Assembly (NCBI RefSeq): GCF_000379525.1 | Contig: NZ_KB902501.1 | Span: 1 to 64,000 of the forward strand | DNA: 64,000 nucleotides | From: Lamprocystis purpurea DSM 4197 | GTDB taxonomy: Bacteria; Pseudomonadota; Gammaproteobacteria; Chromatiales; Chromatiaceae | Direction: 5' to 3' | Shown: one piece after another, positions 3,517-38,309 of the stretch | Layout of the letters: every line of letters begins with the position of its first letter | How positions within the stretch are numbered: position 1 is the stretch's first letter | The notes under the pieces: model-generated | What the model was told of the DNA's origin: nothing | What the model saw: the letters and a program-made list of their open reading frames with translations, nothing else | The model's database searches: none | Position numbers and translations under genes: made by a program

Positions 3517-4320
3517 AAATCGCCCATTTGTACTCCTCGCTACCGTGACGATATGCCTAGCCGGCGAAGTTCACCAAGAACCCCGCAGTTTGTCAAAGGC
3601 GGTCCGCTTCCGTGGTCGCGCAACCTCGAACCAGTCACCGTCCACGGAAATGGGGAAGGTACCACGAAATCCGGCGCTCGCGCCGCCCCGGACCGGTGAT
3701 GCCCCATCCTCACACAAATCCCCCGGCGGAGGCGACTTCTAGGGTCAAGCTCGCCGAGCCGGGATCGATGGGTAGGAGGTCGTCGCCGCGCTACGCTTGG
3801 CGCGTGCCCCGGCGGGGGCCTCGATCGCCGTCCCGGCCACAAGAAAACCGGAGGCCGAGGCTTTACCGTGAAAGTGCGTAGTCAGGCCATCCTGGCCTGG
3901 CGGCGTCGGGGCTGGAACAGTCAGGGCTGGAAGCCCTGACTACGCAGCCTTGCATGCCGACAGTTGCGACCGTGGTCGAGAGGACGTTCATGTTCCGGGG
4001 TGACGCAGGCGTCATGGCCGTTAACCGGAGGGTGCCCGAAGGGCGGTGTCTTGCCTTGATGGAGGCCGCCGGCTAAAGCCTCGGCCTCCGGTTGCCGGGT
4101 AGTGCTTCTTGAGCCGGATGCGGCTCGCCGAGGCCACCCGGAGCCGTTCGCGTGCCCGATCATCCCGCCGGCCGCCTTGCTGGACCTGATCCGGCGCGCA
4201 TGATGGCTTACCCATCTGTAATAAAGCGGTAAGCCGCCGGCCTATCCAAACGCCCGCGAATTTCAGACAATCCACGCCTGAAGGCCCGCGGTCCGGGCCA
4301 TCCGACAGAGGAGCATCGCC
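3517..4320. other. Intergenic region without a convincing gene
   Basis: About 800 bp between the small membrane gene and moxR. It contains the partial palindromic repeat at 3875-3946. Short open frames on both strands are Arg/Pro-rich and show no ribosome binding sites or family motifs. The end holds the moxR ribosome binding site. Confidence 0.6.
3875..3946. repeat. Palindromic dispersed repeat, copy 2 (inner arms only)
   Basis: Starts TGCGTAGTCAGGCC and ends CCTGACTACGCA like the inner part of the copies at 1-125 and 6411-6534, with a slightly longer loop. The outer GGCCTTGATCA arms are missing. Confidence 0.75.
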
Positions 4321-5334
4321 TTGGATCAGACCCTATCCGACCCGCCATCAGACCCGCAGTCCGATCAGGCACACGCCCTCGCGGCCGAGTTCGCCGCCTT
4401 GCGTGATCGTGTCGGCCGCGTCATCCTCGGTCAGGCCAACCTGGTCGAACGGCTGCTGATCGCCCTGCTGGCCGATGGGCATCTGCTGGTGGAAGGCGCT
4501 CCGGGGCTGGCCAAAACCACCGCCATCAAGCAGTTGGCGCTGGGGCTCGAAGGGGATTTTCACCGCATCCAGTTCACCCCGGACTTGTTGCCGGCCGATC
4601 TGACCGGCACCGAAATCTATCGGCCCAACGACGGCACTTTCCGCTTCGACCGCGGGCCGATCTTCCACAACCTGCTGCTGGCCGACGAGGTGAACCGGGC
4701 TCCGGCCAAGGTGCAGTCCGCCCTGCTGGAGGCGATGGGCGAGCGGCAGGTGACCGTGGGCCGGGAGACTTATCCGTTACCCCGCCTGTTCCTGGTGATG
4801 GCGACCCAGAATCCGATCGAACAGGAGGGGACCTATCCGTTGCCGGAGGCCCAGCTCGACCGCTTTCTGATGCATGTGCGGGTGGACTACCCGGACGGGG
4901 CGACCGAGCGCGCCATCCTGCACCTGAACCGCGACGAGGCGCTGCGCGAGGGTCCCGAGGCGGCCGGGGTTCGGCTGAGTCAGGCGAGCATCTTCGCCGC
5001 CCGCCGCGCCATCTTCGGCCTCTACATGGCCCCCGAGGTGGAGGACTATCTGGTGCATCTGGTGATGGCCACCCGGCGGCCGCTGGAGTATGCCGCGGAC
5101 CTGGGCGGCTGGCTGCGCTTCGGCGCCAGCCCCCGCGCGACCCTGGCTTTGGATCGGTGCTCCCGCGCCCGCGCCTGGCTCGGAGGGCGCGACTACGTTT
5201 CGCCGGAGGACCTCCAGTCCGTAGCCCCGGACGTGCTGCGCCACCGGGTGCTGCTGTCCTATGAGGCCGAGGCCGAGGGCAAACACCCCGACGACTTCAT
5301 CGCCGCACTGCTGGCGCGCGTCCCGGCGCCTTGA
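4321..5334 (+). CDS. MoxR-family AAA+ ATPase
   Basis: A 337-residue AAA+ ATPase of the MoxR class, which acts as a chaperone in assembling or activating partner VWA proteins. Walker A is GAPGLAKTT at about 59-67, Walker B is LLLADEVNRA at about 119-128, and sensor 1 is MATQNPIEQEG. The TTG start at 4321 is chosen because AGAGGAG lies 7-8 bases upstream and no in-frame ATG precedes the ATPase core. It is the first gene of a six-gene operon with DUF58, DUF4381, two VWA proteins and a BatD-like protein, the usual partners of MoxR. Confidence 0.93.
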   Translation: MDQTLSDPPSDPQSDQAHALAAEFAALRDRVGRVILGQANLVERLLIALLADGHLLVEGAPGLAKTTAIKQLALGLEGDFHRIQFTPDLLPADLTGTEIYRPNDGTFRFDRGPIFHNLLLADEVNRAPAKVQSALLEAMGERQVTVGRETYPLPRLFLVMATQNPIEQEGTYPLPEAQLDRFLMHVRVDYPDGATERAILHLNRDEALREGPEAAGVRLSQASIFAARRAIFGLYMAPEVEDYLVHLVMATRRPLEYAADLGGWLRFGASPRATLALDRCSRARAWLGGRDYVSPEDLQSVAPDVLRHRVLLSYEAEAEGKHPDDFIAALLARVPAP

Positions 5335-5337
5335 GCG

Positions 5338-6273
5338 ATGTCCTTCCTCGCGTCGACACCATCGCCGGAGGCGCAACCCGGCATCCGCGCCGGGCTCACC
5401 GAGTTGATCGCCCTGCGCGAACAGGCGCGGCGGCTCGATCTGGCCCCGCGCGGGCGGGTGCTGGCGACCCGCAGCGGCGGTCATCTGTCGCGTTTTCGCG
5501 GGCGCGGGATGGAGTTCGACGAGTCGCGGGTCTATCAGCCGGGGGACGACCCGCGCAATATGGACTGGCGGGTCACCGCCCGGGCCGGCACGCCCCATGT
5601 GAAACTGTTTCGCGAGGAACGGGAGCGCCCGGTGTGGCTGCTGGTGGATCAGGGACCGGCCATGCGCTTCGGGACCCGTGTCGCCTTCAAGTCGGTGCTC
5701 GCGGCGCGTGCCGCGGCCCTGCTCGGCTGGGCCGCGGTGGACCGCGCGGACCGAGTGGGCGGCTTGGTGTTCGACGAGACCCGCCATCTGGAGCGGCGGC
5801 CGGCGGCCCGCGGCGGCGGGTTGCTGCCCTTGCTCGAGCGCCTGACCGAGCCCCCCATGGCCGGCGGTCGGGGTTATGACTCACTGGAAGTCGCGGCCGG
5901 TCACCTGGTGCGGCTGGTGCGTCCGGGCAGCCTGGTGGCGGTGATCAGCGATTTTGCCGGTGTGCACCCGCAGTCCGGCCGGTGGCTGGCACAGCTTGCC
6001 GCGGGCAGCGAATTGCTGCTGATCATGGTACACGACCCCATAGAAGCGGCAGCGCCGCCGCCGGGTCGTTATCCGGTGACCGATGGCCTGCGCCGCGGGG
6101 TGCTGGACCTGACCGGAATGCGCAGCCGGGCGTCCTATGAGCAGCGCTACGCCACGCGCACCCAAACGCTGGAGTTGTTGGCGCGGCGTCATCGGGCCCA
6201 CCTGCTGCAGTTGGTGACTGACGAACCGGTCGGCCCCGCGCTGGCCCGCGGGTTACGGGCGCGGGCCGGGTGA
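5338..6273 (+). CDS. DUF58 domain protein (MoxR-associated)
   Basis: A 311-residue protein of the DUF58 family, a VWA-like fold that accompanies MoxR ATPases. The family signature RGMEFDESRVYQPGDDPRNMDW lies at about 57-78 (the central DDPRNMDWRVTAR is the most conserved part). VWLLVDQGPAMRFG at about 100-113 corresponds to the degenerate metal-site strand of the VWA fold. It starts three bases after moxR, so translation is probably coupled. The gene is followed by an unusually long gap (6274-6712) in an otherwise tight operon. Confidence 0.88.
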   Translation: MSFLASTPSPEAQPGIRAGLTELIALREQARRLDLAPRGRVLATRSGGHLSRFRGRGMEFDESRVYQPGDDPRNMDWRVTARAGTPHVKLFREERERPVWLLVDQGPAMRFGTRVAFKSVLAARAAALLGWAAVDRADRVGGLVFDETRHLERRPAARGGGLLPLLERLTEPPMAGGRGYDSLEVAAGHLVRLVRPGSLVAVISDFAGVHPQSGRWLAQLAAGSELLLIMVHDPIEAAAPPPGRYPVTDGLRRGVLDLTGMRSRASYEQRYATRTQTLELLARRHRAHLLQLVTDEPVGPALARGLRARAG

Positions 6274-32164: not shown

Positions 32165-32494
32165 CTACGCTGCGGAACGGTCGAGATAGATCGCCCGCAC
32201 CGACGCGGGCAAGCGATCAGCCGGGTAGCTGCGGTCCCGGATCGCGCCCAGGTGCCACCACCAATGATCCAGGGGTTCGGCCGGCAGATCGGCCAACAGC
32301 TCCGGCAGCACCGCACCGGCCAGCGTCTGCTCGATCAGGATGCCGTCCAACTCATCACAATCCGCGCGTTCCTGATCACTGAGCATCAACCCGGACAGCC
32401 ACTCACGTTCCGTTCGGGCCTCGGCGCCAACGGGTGTCGCGTCCATTACCCAGACGTTATAGGTCCGCGTCCGGAGAGCTTGCTGATCGTCCAC
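32165..32494 (-). CDS. Phage hypothetical protein
   Basis: 109 residues (MDDQQALRTRTYNVWVMDATPVGAEARTEREWLSGLML). Acidic and helical, with LDHWWWHLGAIRDRSY. It overlaps the 3' end of the gpF-like gene by 49 bp in a different frame. No family recognised. Confidence 0.55.
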   Translation of the reverse strand: MDDQQALRTRTYNVWVMDATPVGAEARTEREWLSGLMLSDQERADCDELDGILIEQTLAGAVLPELLADLPAEPLDHWWWHLGAIRDRSYPADRLPASVRAIYLDRSAA

Positions 32495-34923
32495 GCTGGT
32501 TCCCCCATGCGCTCTAAATACTGTTGATCCGGCGGGAACACCGTCACCCGCCGACCGCTACTCTCCACCACTGCCACCCGCCCCAGTTGCTTGGAGTATA
32601 CGCTGTAGCGCGTGCCGCCTTGCGGATCGCGGATCACCACGGCCGCCGCGTCACTCAGCACCCCCGCATAAGCGACATCCAGATCAGCCGGCGCCTGCAA
32701 CGGCCAGCCCGCCCCGTAGCGTCTCAATAGATAGTGTAGTTCACGCGAGTCGATGCCCTTGCCGGCGCTGGCCTGGGTGCGTGCCAGAAAGCCCGCCACC
32801 TCCGGCACCTGTGCATGGGGTGCCAGCAACGCCGCGTTGCGCCGCCACTTCCCGCCGGTCAGACTCACATCCTGGGTCGGCCACCGGGGTTCCCGTAGCG
32901 CCGACCCCACCGCCTGCACCGCGTCAAACCGCTCCGGCCCCAGGGCGGTGCGCAGATCCTCCTTGCCGGCCAACCAACGCCCATCCGCCCGCTGCATCTG
33001 CGCCCACGGCATCCCCGCCGCGTTCAAGTCCCGCGCCCAGCGCGGCGTCATCGCCTCCCGCTGGGCCGGTGTCACCCGCTCCATGAAGTCGGCCACATCC
33101 GTCGCCCCCCGCACCCCATCCTTGCGCATCGGCCGCGTGGTGGGGGTCAAGGAGCACATGCAGTTGTGTGCCACAATACCGTTTGCCGCATACCAATGAT
33201 GCCGGTCGATCTCCAGGTCATAGACATGCCCCGCGAACTCTTTATCCCGAATCTCGACGACCTCGTGCAGCGCTACCAGGCCGGCACCTCGGTCAACCGC
33301 CTGGCTCACGAAACCGGGATATCCCGCTCCATCATCACGCACCGACTGCGCGCGCGCGGCATCGCCGTCAGACCGCTGACCGAAAGTCAAAGGCTCTGGA
33401 TGTCCGGCACCAGCCGGGAGTTTCGTCAGCGCCTCACTGCCCCTGCCCACGCCGCCGTCCGCGGCAAGCCCAAGAGCGTGGCGCATCGCGTCGCCAACGC
33501 GCTCGCCAAGGAGCGCAGACCCGCAGGCATCGCCCCCGCCGAGGATCAGCTCGCGACAATGCTGCGGGAGGCGGGCCTCGATCTCACTCAACAGAAGGCC
33601 GTCCACATCTACAATGTGGACCTCGCCATTCATGCCCCCCCCATCGCCGTGGAAGTGTTCGGCGGCAACTGGCACAGTTACGGCCGACACGCCGCCCGTT
33701 TTGAGGAGCGCCAGAAATACCTGCTCGACGCTGGGTGGCATGTCGTCGTGATCCTGGTACGGCGTTCCGGGCTGCGCGACGCCTGCCGTGACTACCTGAT
33801 CGCTCTGGCGGATGAACTGCGCCGCAACCCACCCCCGCGCAGTCAATACCGCGTGATTCGGGGTACAGGCAAGGCCGCGTCCATCGGCCAACACAATTTC
33901 AATGACCCGGCCTTGATAGCCCGACTTGGTTGCGGCGACGATCCGGCCAGGGACCTGAATCCGGGTATCTCCTAGCACGCAGTGCGGATGCGCCTTGCCC
34001 TTCGGCACCTGCTCCTTGGGCCACACCCCCGCCCCCATCCCGAAATCCACGTCCGCGTAATAGTCGCAGATATCCGCCACCGGGTGACTGGCCGACAGCC
34101 GCCACCGATACCCCAGCACCTCCGGGTCCTCCTCGGACACCGCGATCACCGCCTGATGATGCGCGGTGGACATCTCGGTGCGGGCGATGCGCCGTAGCCC
34201 GTACAACTGCCGATCGTACAGCCACCATTCCAGATGCTTGTCCACCAGGTCCAGCCGCCCCGCGGCCACCGCCTGGCGGATACTGGCCAGGGCATGTTCG
34301 GCTTGGCGCCGCGTCCCGCCCACGCGCAAGGAGGCGACGTGTTCCTCGGCCTCCTTCACCGTCTTGACCCAGTGCGCCATCGCCCCCGGTGTCTTGATGC
34401 TGCCCCGCGCCGCCTGGCGTAGCCGGTCCGCCCAATCCTCGCGCGCCTGCTGGGCGATGGTAAAGCGCTCGCCAGAGGCCGCCTCGATCGCCCGCTGCAT
34501 GTCCATCACCACCGCGTCGGCGGCCCGCCCGGTGCGCACCCCGGCCGCCACCGCCGCGCTCACCCCGGCGCGGGTCTGCTCCTGCCAGGCCCACACCCGC
34601 TGGCTCAGCGTCAACCCATCCGGCCAGCGCTGGGCATAGGCCGCGGCCGTGCGCTCGGCGATCAGCGCGGAACGCAGCTCCGCCGGCACGGTCGCGGCCA
34701 CCGGCTGCACCGCCGCGGCGATGCCTTCGCGGATCAGCGCCTCGGCCGCATCCAGATAGTCACTCACAAATTGGGCGCCCGCCGCATCCAAGATCACCCC
34801 GCCGGCCCGCACCGCCTCGGCAATCGCCGCCGCATAGTCGGCGGCCGTCTCGCCCAGGCGCGCATCATGGGCCTGCACCGCGGCCCACAGCGCCCGCTGC
34901 ACCGCCGCCCAATCAGTCGCCAC
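32446..34923 (-). CDS. Mu gpF-like head morphogenesis protein interrupted by an intein
   Basis: 825 residues as translated; 552 after splicing. The start is taken as GTG 34923 (giving VATDWAAVQRALWAAV), which overlaps the preceding small gene by 11 bp; there is no better ATG. The N-extein (314 residues) is the Mu F-like domain, including LYGLRRIARTEMSTAHHQAVI and HPVADICDYYADVDFGMGAGV. The intein spans residues 315-587. Splicing rejoins KGKAHPH to CMCSLTPT, restoring the HP.C.C motif that marks this family. The C-extein (238 residues) contains PAQREAMTPRWARDLNAAGMPW and a YSVYSKQLGR barwin/nuclease-like tail. gpF-like proteins are minor head proteins needed for capsid assembly. Confidence 0.88.
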   Translation of the reverse strand: MATDWAAVQRALWAAVQAHDARLGETAADYAAAIAEAVRAGGVILDAAGAQFVSDYLDAAEALIREGIAAAVQPVAATVPAELRSALIAERTAAAYAQRWPDGLTLSQRVWAWQEQTRAGVSAAVAAGVRTGRAADAVVMDMQRAIEAASGERFTIAQQAREDWADRLRQAARGSIKTPGAMAHWVKTVKEAEEHVASLRVGGTRRQAEHALASIRQAVAAGRLDLVDKHLEWWLYDRQLYGLRRIARTEMSTAHHQAVIAVSEEDPEVLGYRWRLSASHPVADICDYYADVDFGMGAGVWPKEQVPKGKAHPHCVLGDTRIQVPGRIVAATKSGYQGRVIEIVLADGRGLACTPNHAVLTARGWVAAQFIRQSDQVVTAGVAQPGTPYQDHDDMPPSVEQVFLALLKTGGVSAVTVPVAAEHFHGDGGGMNGEVHIVDVDGLLLSEIEARLPQHCRELILGGGDACGSALLGERVGDAMRHALGLAADGGVGRGSEALTKLPAGAGHPEPLTFGQRSDGDAARAQSVRDDGAGYPGFVSQAVDRGAGLVALHEVVEIRDKEFAGHVYDLEIDRHHWYAANGIVAHNCMCSLTPTTRPMRKDGVRGATDVADFMERVTPAQREAMTPRWARDLNAAGMPWAQMQRADGRWLAGKEDLRTALGPERFDAVQAVGSALREPRWPTQDVSLTGGKWRRNAALLAPHAQVPEVAGFLARTQASAGKGIDSRELHYLLRRYGAGWPLQAPADLDVAYAGVLSDAAAVVIRDPQGGTRYSVYSKQLGRVAVVESSGRRVTVFPPDQQYLERMGEPAWTISKLSGRGPITSG
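33163..33981 (-). mobile_element. Intein in the gpF-like protein
   Basis: 273 codons. Block A: CVLGDTRIQVPG with Cys1. Block B: GLACTPNHAVLTARGWV (TxxH). Block F/G: FAGHVYDLEIDRHHWYAANGIVAHN followed by Cys+1. All residues for protein splicing are present (C1, TxxH, penultimate His, terminal Asn, Cys+1). No LAGLIDADG or HNH endonuclease is seen on this strand; the middle part is low-complexity-like (AEHFHGDGGGMNGEV). The opposite strand of the same DNA encodes a nuclease-like protein (33226-33975). The insertion point is in the most conserved part of the host protein, as expected for a homing element. Confidence 0.92.
33226..33975 (+). CDS. VSR/EDxHD-like homing endonuclease encoded antisense to the intein
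   Basis: 249 residues from ATG 33226 (AGG eight bases upstream; the frame is open from GTG 33166, and ATG 33196 is another option). Residues 1-60 look like a helix-turn-helix: LVQRYQAGTSVNRLAHETGISRSIITHRLRARGI. A PD-(D/E)xK nuclease of the very-short-patch-repair type follows: AEDQLATMLREAGLDL (helix with Glu), YNVDLAI (Asp), IAVEVFGGNWH (Glu and His), FEERQKYLLDAGWHVVVIL. This order fits the EDxHD homing endonucleases. The frame lies wholly inside the intein, in codon register with it; its stop TAG is the complement of the intein's third codon, CTA. I infer it cuts intein-less gpF genes. Confidence 0.78.
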   Translation: MPRELFIPNLDDLVQRYQAGTSVNRLAHETGISRSIITHRLRARGIAVRPLTESQRLWMSGTSREFRQRLTAPAHAAVRGKPKSVAHRVANALAKERRPAGIAPAEDQLATMLREAGLDLTQQKAVHIYNVDLAIHAPPIAVEVFGGNWHSYGRHAARFEERQKYLLDAGWHVVVILVRRSGLRDACRDYLIALADELRRNPPPRSQYRVIRGTGKAASIGQHNFNDPALIARLGCGDDPARDLNPGIS

Positions 34924-35098
34924 GATGCCGCACCACCACCCGCAGATGAGCCGCGACCTGCTCGCGATAGCACGCGGGCACCAGGGCGAGGCGCCGCGCG
35001 GTCTCTGCCGCATCGCGCCCCTGCGCGAGCCAATAATTCCACTGCCCCAGCGTCGCCGTGGGGTCCGGGGGGGGAGGGGGGCCAGCCGCGTCCATCAT
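34913..35098 (-). CDS. Small phage protein
   Basis: 61 residues (MMDAAGPPPPPDPTATLGQWNYWLAQGRDAAETARRLALVP). Pro-rich start, then helical with LGQWNYWLAQGRD. It overlaps both neighbours by a few bases (4 bp upstream, 11 bp into the gpF-like start), which supports translation by coupling. No family recognised. Confidence 0.55.
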   Translation of the reverse strand: MMDAAGPPPPPDPTATLGQWNYWLAQGRDAAETARRLALVPACYREQVAAHLRVVVRHRGD

Positions 35099-35307
35099 GT
35101 CAGCAGCGCGATCGCATCAAAGCACGCCTGCGCCGCGCACAGATGCGTCTCGGCCTCGTACTGCAACTGCTCGATCTTCCGCAGCCGTTGCGCTGCCTCC
35201 TGCGCGGCAAGCAGCCCGCTGAACCCCTCACGCCGCTCCTGCTTGATCCGGTCGATCTCGCCGGGGATCATCTGCGGAGTGATCTTGCGGATCGCCGGCT
35301 CGCTCAC
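35095..35307 (-). CDS. Small phage protein, helical
   Basis: 70 residues (MSEPAIRKITPQMIPGEIDRIKQERREGFSGLLAAQEAAQRLRK). Charged and helical throughout. Tight 4-bp overlaps with the portal gene and the next small gene. No family recognised. Confidence 0.55.
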   Translation of the reverse strand: MSEPAIRKITPQMIPGEIDRIKQERREGFSGLLAAQEAAQRLRKIEQLQYEAETHLCAAQACFDAIALLT

Positions 35308-36689
35308 GCCCCCACCTCCGCGGCCACCCGATCCCCATACGGATCGGCCCCCGCCGCCTGTTCATCATCGATCCGCGCATAATCATCGGGCGAGGCCGCA
35401 TCCCCCAGCACCCGCCGCGCCGCCCGGCCGCGGATCAACCGCTCGGTCGTCGCCCCCAGCCCCAGCGTCAGCGCATCCATATCCTCGGCCAACCGCGCGG
35501 CCAAATCCTGCACCTGGAAGGCCCGTGGATAGACCACCCGCAGATCGGTGCCAGGGTCGACCCGCATCCACCCACAGGCCAGCCGACCGCACGCGATCTC
35601 GGCCGCCTCCAGCGCCTGCGCAAGCAGGCTCAAGGTGTCGTCCGCCGCCCGCAGGTGGAAGCCCAACGCCACCCCCGAGGACTGCACGCCCCCGGTAAAT
35701 TCCAAATTCGCCAGCTCATAGAGCCGCGCCACACAGTCCCGAATCGTCTCCCGATACGCCGTCACCGGCCCATCGGGCGGCGCCACATAGGCCGGCTGGC
35801 CGCCGCCGTCGCTGGAGTAGGGCAGGGCGTTCTCGGTCGACAGCGTCAGACCCGACTCGCGCAAGCGGTCGACCTCGCCCGGATCCTTGAAGGGCAGGGT
35901 GAGGATGCTGAAGGTCTGCGACCGCAGCAGGTCCCGCTGCTCACTCCATAGATTGAATAGGTCGTCGGTGAGCGCGATCACCCCCTCCGCCCACGGCGCC
36001 GCCCGCTCATCGGTCAGTTCCAGCAGTTCCGTGGAGTGCAACCGCACCACCGGCACCTGGCCGCACCCATGCTCACCGGTCAGTGGTGCGCCGGTCGCCT
36101 GGTCCGTCAGCAGCGTCTGGCCCTCCACATCCTCGGCCACCCACCAGCGCGTCGCGTCCCAGCCGCGATAGCGCAGCGTGGTCTCGGTCGTCACCCCCGT
36201 CCCGTAACTCACCCCGTCCGCGCCGGACTCGGCAAAGACGATCTGCGTAATCTCTCCCAGCGGTCCCAGCGTCAACCGGGCCACCGACCCCGGCAGCCGC
36301 AACACCACATAGGGCATCCGCCCGGCATCATCCGCCCGCGTCACCGAGGCCCCGGCCGGCCGGTCCACCACCAGATAGACCGTCCCCAACAGCATGGCGA
36401 GCAGCGTCGCGCGGCGCATCACATCATCGATCTGCCCGCCGCGCCCATCGGCATTGACTTGCAGCGCCTGCCAGGCCGCCGCCTCGCCACTGCGTTGCGC
36501 CGGCCGCGCGAACAGCGTCCCGCGGTAGGCGTCGATGATCTTGCGCGGGTAGTTCAGATACCGGGCCAGCGCCTGGCGCCGCTGAAACTTGTCATCGGTC
36601 TCGCGTGGATGGCGCACCAGATACGTGCCGTCCGCATAGCCGCCGGCACCGCGATAGGCGTCCAGGCGTTGGGTATCCGTCAGCGCCAT
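35304..36689 (-). CDS. Portal protein (DUF4055-type)
   Basis: 461 residues. The start MALTDTQRLDAYRGAGGYADGTYLVRHPRETDDKFQRRQALARYLNYPRKIIDAYRGTLF is characteristic of DUF4055-type portal proteins of transposable siphoviruses. Later text includes WSEQRDLLRSQTFSILTLPF and YRETIRDCVARLYELANL. The portal forms the dodecameric DNA channel at one capsid vertex. It lies between the large terminase and the gpF-like gene, as expected. Confidence 0.82.
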   Translation of the reverse strand: MALTDTQRLDAYRGAGGYADGTYLVRHPRETDDKFQRRQALARYLNYPRKIIDAYRGTLFARPAQRSGEAAAWQALQVNADGRGGQIDDVMRRATLLAMLLGTVYLVVDRPAGASVTRADDAGRMPYVVLRLPGSVARLTLGPLGEITQIVFAESGADGVSYGTGVTTETTLRYRGWDATRWWVAEDVEGQTLLTDQATGAPLTGEHGCGQVPVVRLHSTELLELTDERAAPWAEGVIALTDDLFNLWSEQRDLLRSQTFSILTLPFKDPGEVDRLRESGLTLSTENALPYSSDGGGQPAYVAPPDGPVTAYRETIRDCVARLYELANLEFTGGVQSSGVALGFHLRAADDTLSLLAQALEAAEIACGRLACGWMRVDPGTDLRVVYPRAFQVQDLAARLAEDMDALTLGLGATTERLIRGRAARRVLGDAASPDDYARIDDEQAAGADPYGDRVAAEVGA

Positions 36690-36695
36690 GATTCG

Positions 36696-38309
36696 TTACA
36701 ACCCCAACAACCGCATCGGTGAATAGGTATGCCTAGACCCCGCCAGGCACAAATCCCACAACATCGCCAGCGCATCCGGCCCGTCGTCATGATCGGCATC
36801 CGGGTAATGCCGCAACTGCTCGATCAACTCGCGCTGATCCGGCCGCAGCAGGATCAACCCGTTCTGGCAGTGCGGCTGCAACGCCTCGATCCGCAGCCCC
36901 TTATCGGCGTGCGGCAGCACCCCGCGCGCTGGCACCGGCACCCCCGCGGCAGCCGAACGGCTCACCAACTCGGTGCGCAGAAACTCTTGAAATTGGACGG
37001 ACTCCACCGCCCACAACCGGCAGTGATGCTGCCGCTGCAACGCGATGATGTCCGAGATTATCCGGTCCGGGGTCCGCCGCCGCACACTGGCCTCCAGCAC
37101 AAACAGCCGCCCGGACGGCCGATGAAAGGCCCCCACCACCAGCGCGCTCGGGTCCCCGCGGCGGTTCAGCCGCCCCAGGCTCGGATCGCAGGCGCCAAAG
37201 CACTCGCAGCCCGTGGGCACCTGCGCCCAATACTGCAACGCCTCGGCAAACGGATTCGCCTCGCCGCTCACCGGCTCGTTTTGATGCTCACTCTCGAAGG
37301 CATCGCGGTTCTGGGCGCGGATCAACATCAGCGCATACAACGGCCGCACCGCCGGCCACGACACCACCGCCCCGGCCTCCATCGCGTCCCGGCTCGCCTC
37401 GTAGAAGGCCCGCGCCGCGGTCGGCCCATGCTCGCGCAACACCAGCTCCCACTGCTCCCAGAGGTCCAGCCGGTCCGGCACCTGGATCAGGCTGCGGAAG
37501 TGCCGTCCGCTCCACAGCGGCGAGCGCAACACCCGCGCCAACACCGCGTCGTAATGCAGCACGGTGCCGATATACAGCACATCCATCGACCCATCGGGCG
37601 GCCCCAACGGCAGCACCGTGCGATTCAGCCAAGCGTCCAGCCGATCCCGTTGCTCCGGCGAGCGCACGTTCTCGTCATTCTCCAGGTCATCGAGCACGCA
37701 CAAGTCCGGCCGGTGCGGTCCATGGCGCAACCCGCGCACCCGCTGTCCGGCGCCGAACGCCTGCACCTTCACATTCCCCGTGGTGACAATCACCCCTTCC
37801 TTCCACACCCGCCCGCGGCCCACCGCCTGCGGAAAGTCCGCCTTCAGACGCGGGTTCGCCTCCAACTCCGCTTGCAGCGCGGCCAGTTGTTCCGCCGCCT
37901 GGCGGTAGGTATCCGAGAACAGAATCGGGTAGCGCTTCAGGGCGTAGACGATGCACCACAAGGGCAACGCCAAGGCGCACGTCGTGCTCTTGGTCTCGCC
38001 GCGGGGCGCGGCAATCGCGTCATGATCCCCGGCGCCATTGGTCGCCAGGTCCGGCAGCCGCGCGAACAAATGCGCCTGCAAGGTCGAGGGGGCGACCTCG
38101 CGGCCATCCGGCTGGTAATAGTGGGGGAGATAGGTCCGGCAGAAGTAGCCGAAGTCGGTGCGCGCCCGCGCCCGCCGCGTCGTCGCAGCCTCCGCCCCTG
38201 GGGCGAAGCCCACGCACTCCAATTCAATCTGATCCCGCAGCCCCGCCGCATAGGCCGCCAACTCGTCCAGCCATTCCCGCTGAACGCCGCTCGCCGCCCG
38301 CTTAGCCAT
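36696..38309 (-). CDS. Terminase large subunit
   Basis: 537 residues. The ATPase has a Walker A-like APRGETKSTTCALAL at about 102-116 and Walker B LCVLDDLEND at about 211-220. A C-terminal RNase H-like nuclease starts with FGACDPSLGRLNRRGDPSAL and has LFVLEASVRRRTPDRI and DADHDDGPDALAM with its late acidic residues. The enzyme packages DNA into capsids, in transposable phages by headful cutting. It overlaps the small subunit gene by 8 bp. Confidence 0.88.
   Translation of the reverse strand: MAKRAASGVQREWLDELAAYAAGLRDQIELECVGFAPGAEAATTRRARARTDFGYFCRTYLPHYYQPDGREVAPSTLQAHLFARLPDLATNGAGDHDAIAAPRGETKSTTCALALPLWCIVYALKRYPILFSDTYRQAAEQLAALQAELEANPRLKADFPQAVGRGRVWKEGVIVTTGNVKVQAFGAGQRVRGLRHGPHRPDLCVLDDLENDENVRSPEQRDRLDAWLNRTVLPLGPPDGSMDVLYIGTVLHYDAVLARVLRSPLWSGRHFRSLIQVPDRLDLWEQWELVLREHGPTAARAFYEASRDAMEAGAVVSWPAVRPLYALMLIRAQNRDAFESEHQNEPVSGEANPFAEALQYWAQVPTGCECFGACDPSLGRLNRRGDPSALVVGAFHRPSGRLFVLEASVRRRTPDRIISDIIALQRQHHCRLWAVESVQFQEFLRTELVSRSAAAGVPVPARGVLPHADKGLRIEALQPHCQNGLILLRPDQRELIEQLRHYPDADHDDGPDALAMLWDLCLAGSRHTYSPMRLLGL

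Follow-up and report, generated by a model that had tools for sequence, protein, structure and literature searches.

The window analysed here, the first 64,000 nucleotides of contig NZ_KB902501.1 of Lamprocystis purpurea DSM 4197, contains an intein whose DNA also encodes, on the opposite strand, a candidate homing endonuclease. The outermost feature of the locus is a MuF/gpF-like phage head morphogenesis gene on the minus strand (32446..35013), which encodes 855 residues including the intein. Its product matches phrog_1657 at 1.6e-28, the best of several head-packaging PHROGs, while the Pfam MuF model gives only a weak match (0.079). The intein of 273 residues lies within this gene (33163..33981, minus strand), and the candidate endonuclease gene of 249 codons lies within the intein on the plus strand, from an ATG at 33226 to a TAG stop at 33973-33975. 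The codons of the plus-strand frame are in exact register with those of the intein, as the initial annotation had proposed and as the codon alignment bears out.

The intein has all of its characteristic residues. Cys1 (33979-33981), the block B motif TPNH with its TxxH pattern, the block F motif GHVYDLE, the terminal His-Asn (33163-33168) and Cys+1 immediately outside the element can be read directly on the minus strand. The sequence matches PF14890 (5.9e-14) and TIGR01443 (1e-5), and its AlphaFold2 model has a predicted Hint fold that matches the Mtu RecA intein 2in0 with a Z-score of 13.8 and a root-mean-square deviation (rmsd) of 1.2 over 108 residues. The N-terminal splicing half, with blocks A and B, occupies 33811..33981, and the C-terminal half, with blocks F and G, occupies 33163..33243; in both halves the intein is the more conserved of the two frames. 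Residues 128-217 mostly have a predicted local distance difference test (pLDDT) score below 50, so that the middle of the intein is predicted to be disordered, the FHGDG segment apart. No separate endonuclease domain was matched in the intein frame in the family searches. The two claims that a complete intein sits in a gpF-like head gene and that its own strand lacks an endonuclease domain thus both hold. A split intein or fractured gene was considered and rejected, since the host frame is single and continuous.

The plus-strand frame is open from 33166 to 33975 and comprises 269 codons and a stop. The initial annotation had described this open frame correctly; the start of the gene, judged from the codons that relatives have in this column, is most likely ATG 33226 and not the mechanical start, GTG 33166. 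The product probably consists of a helix-turn-helix (HTH) domain followed by a nuclease domain related to Vsr, as had been suggested. The putative HTH domain (residues 10-43, 33253..33354, plus strand) matches HTH_7 (0.0016) and HTH_58 (0.0034), both under their curated cut-offs, and contains helices 10-18, 23-30 and 34-43 in the AlphaFold2 model. The Vsr/PD-(D/E)xK-like catalytic domain (residues 104-200, 33535..33825, plus strand) is assigned from its predicted fold and its conserved residues E106 (33541), D132 (33619), E143 (33652), H150 (33673) and R162 (33709), all five of which are kept in the window nuclease. A nuclease fold in a structure prediction was one of two points on which the proposal had been staked beforehand, and the model, built from an alignment of 30 sequences, has a mean pLDDT of 91.3. 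Its nuclease domain matches Vsr 1cw0 (Z 11.4, rmsd 2.4, 109 residues), NGO0050 3hrl (Z 11.4, 89 residues) and the catalytic domain of I-Bth0305I, 3r3p (Z 10.5, rmsd 2.8, 94 residues), which indicates a Vsr-like catalytic fold. The comparison with the EDxHD family that had been drawn earlier therefore holds at the level of the predicted fold. Foldseek E-values for 3hrl, 3r3p and 1vsr are weak (0.0019 to 0.066), with probabilities of 0.98-1.00. At the sequence level the nuclease matches PF18741 (REase_MTES_1575) at 1.9e-8, and 22 of 30 relatives match this family at E <= 1e-3; the match to DUF559 (0.03) is under the curated cut-off. A sequence search of the PDB and a PHROG scan with the nuclease gave nothing significant. 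Several of the longer elements of about 316-336 residues (e.g. L019, L027 and L038) have an extra N-terminal nuclease stretch resembling a second HTH, which suggests that the DNA-binding part is modular.

The arrangement is found in a large family. A tblastn search with the nuclease gave 119 phage records, a profile scan of IMG/VR gave at least 537 confirmed relatives, 80 of which were kept, and a profile scan of bacterial genomes gave 6 loci. The nuclease is present at 142 of 145 loci, the other three being empty-site phages, and 99 of the nucleases are distinct. For 98 of them, the opposite frame in register has no stop along the full length of the match; the exception is L041. Most of the 99 loci were found via the nuclease itself, which makes the sample a biased one. 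Profiles locate both intein ends in 93 loci, and 90 of the 93 show Cys1 and Cys+1. The analyses of 90 elements omit L101 and L144, in which the profile misplaced an intein end, and L013, in which the host frame ends with the contig; a further six unique loci (L002, L041, L046, L047, L087 and L097) have no complete intein. The usual insertion site in MuF is HPN|CRC. Among the 90 relatives His43 and Asn273 of the intein are invariant, and the nuclease residues are conserved in 89 (E106), 90 (D132), 89 (E143), 81 (H150) and 90 (R162).

A sample independent of the nuclease was obtained from 187 records that match the N-terminal 68 residues of the intein, by choosing nine head-module loci from the 40 listed. 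All nine have an antisense endonuclease frame, Vsr-like in eight and LAGLIDADG-like in one. L209 and L213 came from intein-frame queries and carry the nuclease, but they are not counted as nuclease-independent, since the queries that gave them overlap the nuclease gene. Among the loci examined, none combined an intact intein with a broken antisense frame, in keeping with the expectation set out in the initial annotation. The L060 nuclease match covers at least 80% in 99/99 phage records matched, in a listing that does not display internal stops. Record MG969409 is damaged on both strands, with the nuclease in three pieces and the intein in two. A phylum-wide search with the nuclease alignment gave matches, most of them partial, in 40 of 398 genomes, and the context was viewed for L148, which is the window, and L149. 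IMG/VR scans with the L051 nuclease alone confirmed nothing. In a divergent member, L147 (1898-3727, Streptomyces platensis plasmid NZ_CP108975), the insertion point is different (RDGPE|CGWVNHPD) and the N-terminus of the antisense nuclease is cysteine-rich and zinc-finger-like. In Gordonia phage Malisha (L214, 1605-3230) an intein with an antisense nuclease of this type is inserted at GSHDN|CKC in a shorter head-module protein annotated as hypothetical, which widens the range of host proteins.

Because the frames are in exact codon register, the conservation of one shadows the other, and they were therefore tested separately. Across the 90 elements, entropy is lower in the intein frame for 33163-33243 and 33811-33972 and lower in the nuclease frame for 33271-33783. 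Ties occur in one window of this middle region (33622-33648) and in the two that border it (33244-33270 and 33784-33810). The ratio of nonsynonymous to synonymous substitution (dN/dS) was obtained by an OLGenie-like simple counting of substitutions by their effect in both frames, which is not the published program, and the class of substitutions silent in both frames was too small for use. When five pairs with an identity of at least 68%, judged independent, are pooled, dN/dS in the middle zone is 0.20 (0.16-0.25) for the nuclease, a low antisense value of the kind that had been looked for, and 0.58 (0.49-0.71) for the intein. At the C-terminal end of the intein the values are 0.07 (0.02-0.14) for the intein and 0.65 (0.24-2.41) for the nuclease, and at its N-terminal end 0.26 (0.17-0.39) and 0.63 (0.39-1.11), respectively. 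Pooling nine pairs, some of them more divergent, gives 0.24 for the nuclease and 0.60 for the intein in the middle zone. The probability that no antisense stop would occur, given the intein protein and codon usage, has a median of 10^-2.6 over the 90 relatives and is 10^-13.8 at its lowest. In 15 of the 90 elements the GC content is 45% or less, and the antisense frame is still open.

The translation signals of the nuclease appear to be embedded in the splicing domain. The start region on the plus strand (33214..33228), AGGT followed by the ATG, is antisense to block F, so that the column of the nuclease start lies opposite the block F motif GHVYDL. This column holds ATG in 67 of the 90 elements and GTG in five, 72 in all, and a Shine-Dalgarno (SD)-like motif precedes the start in 76 (GGAGG in 42 and a shorter motif in 34). 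At the other end, the nuclease gene terminates within the intein in 87/90, with the stop at a median of seven codons from Cys1, which makes this a gene nested in the element. Codon choice was examined in 80 representatives of clusters at 75% identity, with the expectation taken from the exteins of the same genes. The block F His opposite the start is CAT in 49 of 53 testable cases, where 26.1 are expected, and the Leu opposite the SD motif is CTC or CTT in 61 of 69 (24.4 expected). Among the control positions, His43 of TPNH shows the reverse (25/69, 34.8 expected) and Leu46 a mild bias (38/73, 25.6 expected); the penultimate His272, counted in all 90 elements, has no clear bias (23/40, 19.6 expected). 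Synonymous codon choice in the intein thus favours the start signals of the nuclease. These embedded signals also support the earlier proposal that the nuclease would be made as a separate protein; the possibility that it forms part of the spliced protein was rejected, because it is encoded on the opposite strand.

A short segment in the middle of the element (33640..33654) appears to be constrained on both strands. It encodes the nuclease strand PIAVE on the plus strand, which holds E143 and is PVAVE in many relatives, and FHGDG of the intein on the minus strand. Third positions that are fourfold degenerate for the nuclease are nearly fixed here, in 84/84 at 33640, 48/48 at 33643, 86/89 at 33646 and 77/80 at 33649, which preserves Gly, Asp, Gly and His of FHGDG. 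The codon at 33640 is CCC in 50 cases, TCC in 18, GCC in four and CGC in 12; only CGC changes the Gly, to Ala. Since the first position varies where the change is silent for this Gly, the constraint would be at the protein level. FHGD is exact in 51 of the 90 inteins.

Empty sites and the relationship of the elements to their flanks indicate mobility, so far as it can be read from sequence. In the Salmonella phages GRNsp27, St162 and vB_SenTO17 the MuF gene lacks the element and is 1044 rather than 1860 bp long, and these three phages (L054, L055 and L062) show the exact empty junction HPN|CRSTTAPV; these are intein-less alleles of relatives. Ten more records among the listed matches have the same two-piece pattern, some of them duplicates of one phage. 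Between Escherichia coli phage GZMU_E2010 (L058) and Salmonella phage SGPC (L060) the element is 95% identical, while identity is 68% in the N-exteins and 79% in the C-exteins. Distances between the nucleases and between the intein ends are correlated (Mantel r 0.43, 0/999 permutations, 80 sequences), so that the two halves travel together, though imperfectly.

A second type of enzyme occurs in the same inverted position. In Gordonia phage Thing3 (L207) the intein is inserted at EVIN|CRC, the MuF site of the Vsr-type elements in other Gordonia phages, and has no Vsr-like gene. By eye, this intein also lacks FHGDG. Its antisense frame in register matches the I-MsoI fusion 3fd2 (E 4e-4) over a motif stretch of 25 residues only, and the motif AAYVAAFIDGEG can be read as one of LAGLIDADG type. 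The protein is 32-33% identical to endonuclease genes of cyanophage PP and a Caulobacter phage, the match to the cyanophage PP gene annotated as a DNA endonuclease being 32% identity over 69% at E 5e-7. No Pfam LAGLIDADG family was matched at E <= 1, and an IMG/VR scan with this protein alone confirmed nothing. The LAGLIDADG-like antisense frame is present in nine records, which represent six Gordonia phages. Between Thing3 and Barsten, the differences in the gene of 146 codons are 41 synonymous and 9 nonsynonymous for the nuclease, and 5 synonymous and 45 nonsynonymous for the intein frame. They fall 9, 4 and 43 on the three antisense codon positions, and the flanks of the gene show the reversed pattern (19/13/8 and 22/6/12). 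Two unrelated nucleases would thus lie backwards in inteins at one site, each under selection on its own strand.

The element is very probably a mobile intein with an antisense-encoded homing endonuclease. In the proposed mechanism, the minus strand would produce the MuF head protein, from which the Hint intein would splice itself out between HPH and Cys. The inverted nuclease gene would fill the usual insertion point of an endonuclease, between blocks B and F, and the intein frame would remain open through the complement of the nuclease as a largely disordered segment. From the plus strand, an antisense message with the ribosome-binding site and ATG inside block F would give the HTH and Vsr/I-Bth0305I-like nuclease as a separate protein. 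In co-infecting phages this enzyme would cut MuF alleles that lack the intein, at the point of insertion, and the whole 819-bp element would be copied in during repair. Transcription, splicing, cleavage and homing are the steps that we infer. It is plausible that an antisense gene lets the enzyme escape the late timing of the head gene. A wider reading is that antisense-coded endonucleases are a recurrent class of mobile inteins, in which at least two unrelated nuclease folds, Vsr-like and LAGLIDADG, were captured backwards at one site in a head gene, the reason being that an enzyme encoded antisense depends neither on the late expression of a structural protein nor on its splicing, and in which the 15-bp overlap is true double coding of the catalytic strand and FHGDG; the chances for and against this wider reading seem to us evenly balanced.

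Several observations weigh against a mobile intein with an antisense homing endonuclease. The window nuclease scores 34.7 and 35.4 bits against PF18741, below the curated cut-off of 38.2, so that relatedness to this family rather than membership is suggested. The start column holds neither ATG nor GTG in 18 of the 90 elements; six of these have another start with an SD motif in reach, seven more have one of these two codons two positions further along, and five have no such alternative. In 14/90 every SD motif counted is missing, and there is no clear SD motif ahead of the ATG of the LAGLIDADG-like gene in L207 or L211. Leu37 (43/70, 23.9 expected) and Leu57 (51/75, 25.7 expected) are also biased in all 90 elements, if less strongly, as are several His and Leu columns within the overlap, where bias is expected because the nuclease is encoded there. 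In the pair L124-L142 the C-terminal end of the intein has a dN/dS of 0.80, which indicates little constraint. In the window, a scan for consensus promoters gave a single plus-strand site, at 33588, which lies inside the nuclease gene, and none ahead of the start of that gene. For the window copy in particular, the chance of an antisense frame without stops is about 10^-1.4 (some 4%), and its SD motif is only AGGT.

The chance of about 4% is also the starting point for regarding the antisense frame as a mirror artefact of intein conservation and GC-rich codons. The exact register does mirror conservation, and the conserved nuclease tail VIRG.GE is the mirror of intein block B. However, the frame-wise entropy and the position-specific pattern of substitution contradict this explanation: in the middle zone substitutions concentrate at the third positions of the nuclease codons. 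It is also at odds with the independent family and fold matches, with a free-standing relative that has no long opposite frame, and with the frames that stay open at low GC content, and it was rejected as scarcely credible. Taken by itself, the open frame says little for the window copy; the strong evidence comes from the family as a whole, in its homology, predicted fold, selection on two frames and signals for translation. The free-standing relative, L041, is the sole one among the 99 distinct nucleases and shows that the nuclease can exist outside inteins. Its gene (4001-4678) is convergent with, and overlaps the end of, a MuF-like gene (4616-5377, minus strand), called from its HPNCAC motif and place rather than from a family search, that apparently lacks an intein. 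It is possible that L041 is an ancestor of the antisense arrangement or an escapee from it; an IMG/VR scan with its nuclease returned its own contig only. This locus would also suit a real, selected nuclease that serves in competition, by cutting the genomes of co-infecting phages, or in repair, and for which the intein is a safe place; Vsr, to which the fold is matched, is itself a repair enzyme, and the correlation between nuclease and intein distances is only moderate. Such a role is nevertheless improbable, given the insertion exactly at HPN|C, the natural empty sites, the much greater similarity between phages of the element than of its flanks, and a second, unrelated enzyme of homing type in the same inverted slot. 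The architecture could, finally, be real in the family while the prophage copy in the window is no longer active. The weak SD motif is consistent with this, as is a near-identical prophage copy, L002 (IMGVR_UViG_2703719267_000003), in which a 23-nt deletion at 288-289, corresponding to about 33280-33303 of the window and within the part coding for the HTH, breaks both the nuclease and the intein frame. Since both frames are intact in the window and the five nuclease residues are present together with Cys1, TxxH, Asn and Cys+1, loss of activity there is rather unlikely.

Mobile inteins usually carry their endonuclease in the same protein chain, between blocks B and F. Like those mobile inteins whose LAGLIDADG or HNH endonuclease is in frame, such as PI-PfuI and the Mtu RecA intein, the present element has a Hint domain, an insertion in a conserved motif and empty sites in relatives; unlike them, it has its endonuclease on the opposite strand, with its own frame, start signals and stop. 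EDxHD nucleases have been linked to fractured split-intein genes. The EDxHD family of I-Bth0305I has been described among the homing endonucleases of group I introns, in the part of the source available (PMC3943268). The catalytic fold and the association with phages and self-splicing elements are shared with I-Bth0305I, whereas the gene described here, in contrast to the EDxHD cases in group I introns and fractured genes, is nested antisense inside a whole intein.

Expression of a homing gene from the antisense strand in vivo is reportedly the subject, by its title, of Johansen et al. 2006. The homing genes of the Didymium group I introns S956-1 and S956-2 are oriented oppositely to each other, according to the available part of another report (PMC13182076); the antisense one would be that of S956-2. 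As in S956-2, a self-splicing element contains a homing gene that runs against its host gene, but there the splicing element is RNA, while here the overlap is translated on both strands. The head-gene inteins of the Guernseyvirinae (Snoke, the UPWr_S phages and vKMB36) are of the same kind and in the same host gene, and the Snoke record holds an antisense nuclease 94% identical to that of L060. Phage K1ind2 lacks the intein that Snoke has, as stated in the accessible text of the source (PMC6776784), and the available portions of the reports on these inteins make no mention of an antisense nuclease. In PV446483 (Salmonella phage PK2, L061) two antisense coding sequences over the intein, 1835-2644 and 1957-2358, are annotated as hypothetical; no antisense coding sequence is annotated there in the other intein-bearing records fetched, and in NC_073177 hypothetical proteins are listed where the match lies. 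The open-licence literature of PubMed Central gave no description of an intein with an antisense endonuclease, subscription literature being mostly outside this scope, so that an earlier publication is possible. Within the open-licence literature searched, antisense homing genes are thus known from group I introns, and inteins are a new setting for them.

In this arrangement the splicing and endonuclease functions would be divided between the strands of one DNA segment, and the start signals of the nuclease would be held in synonymous codons of the splicing domain. It offers a natural, long antisense overlap of protein-coding genes that lets selection be measured for each strand. It may also explain many phage inteins that are annotated as endonuclease-free, and since it recurs with a LAGLIDADG-like enzyme, the choice of orientation by homing genes can be tested directly in common laboratory phages.

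The neighbours of the host gene, open reading frames 35304-36689 and 36696-38309, look by eye like those of the portal and terminase. Elsewhere in the same genome, an open frame of 1073 residues (G000:C80:3017-5188) has three matches to the intein-splicing family.

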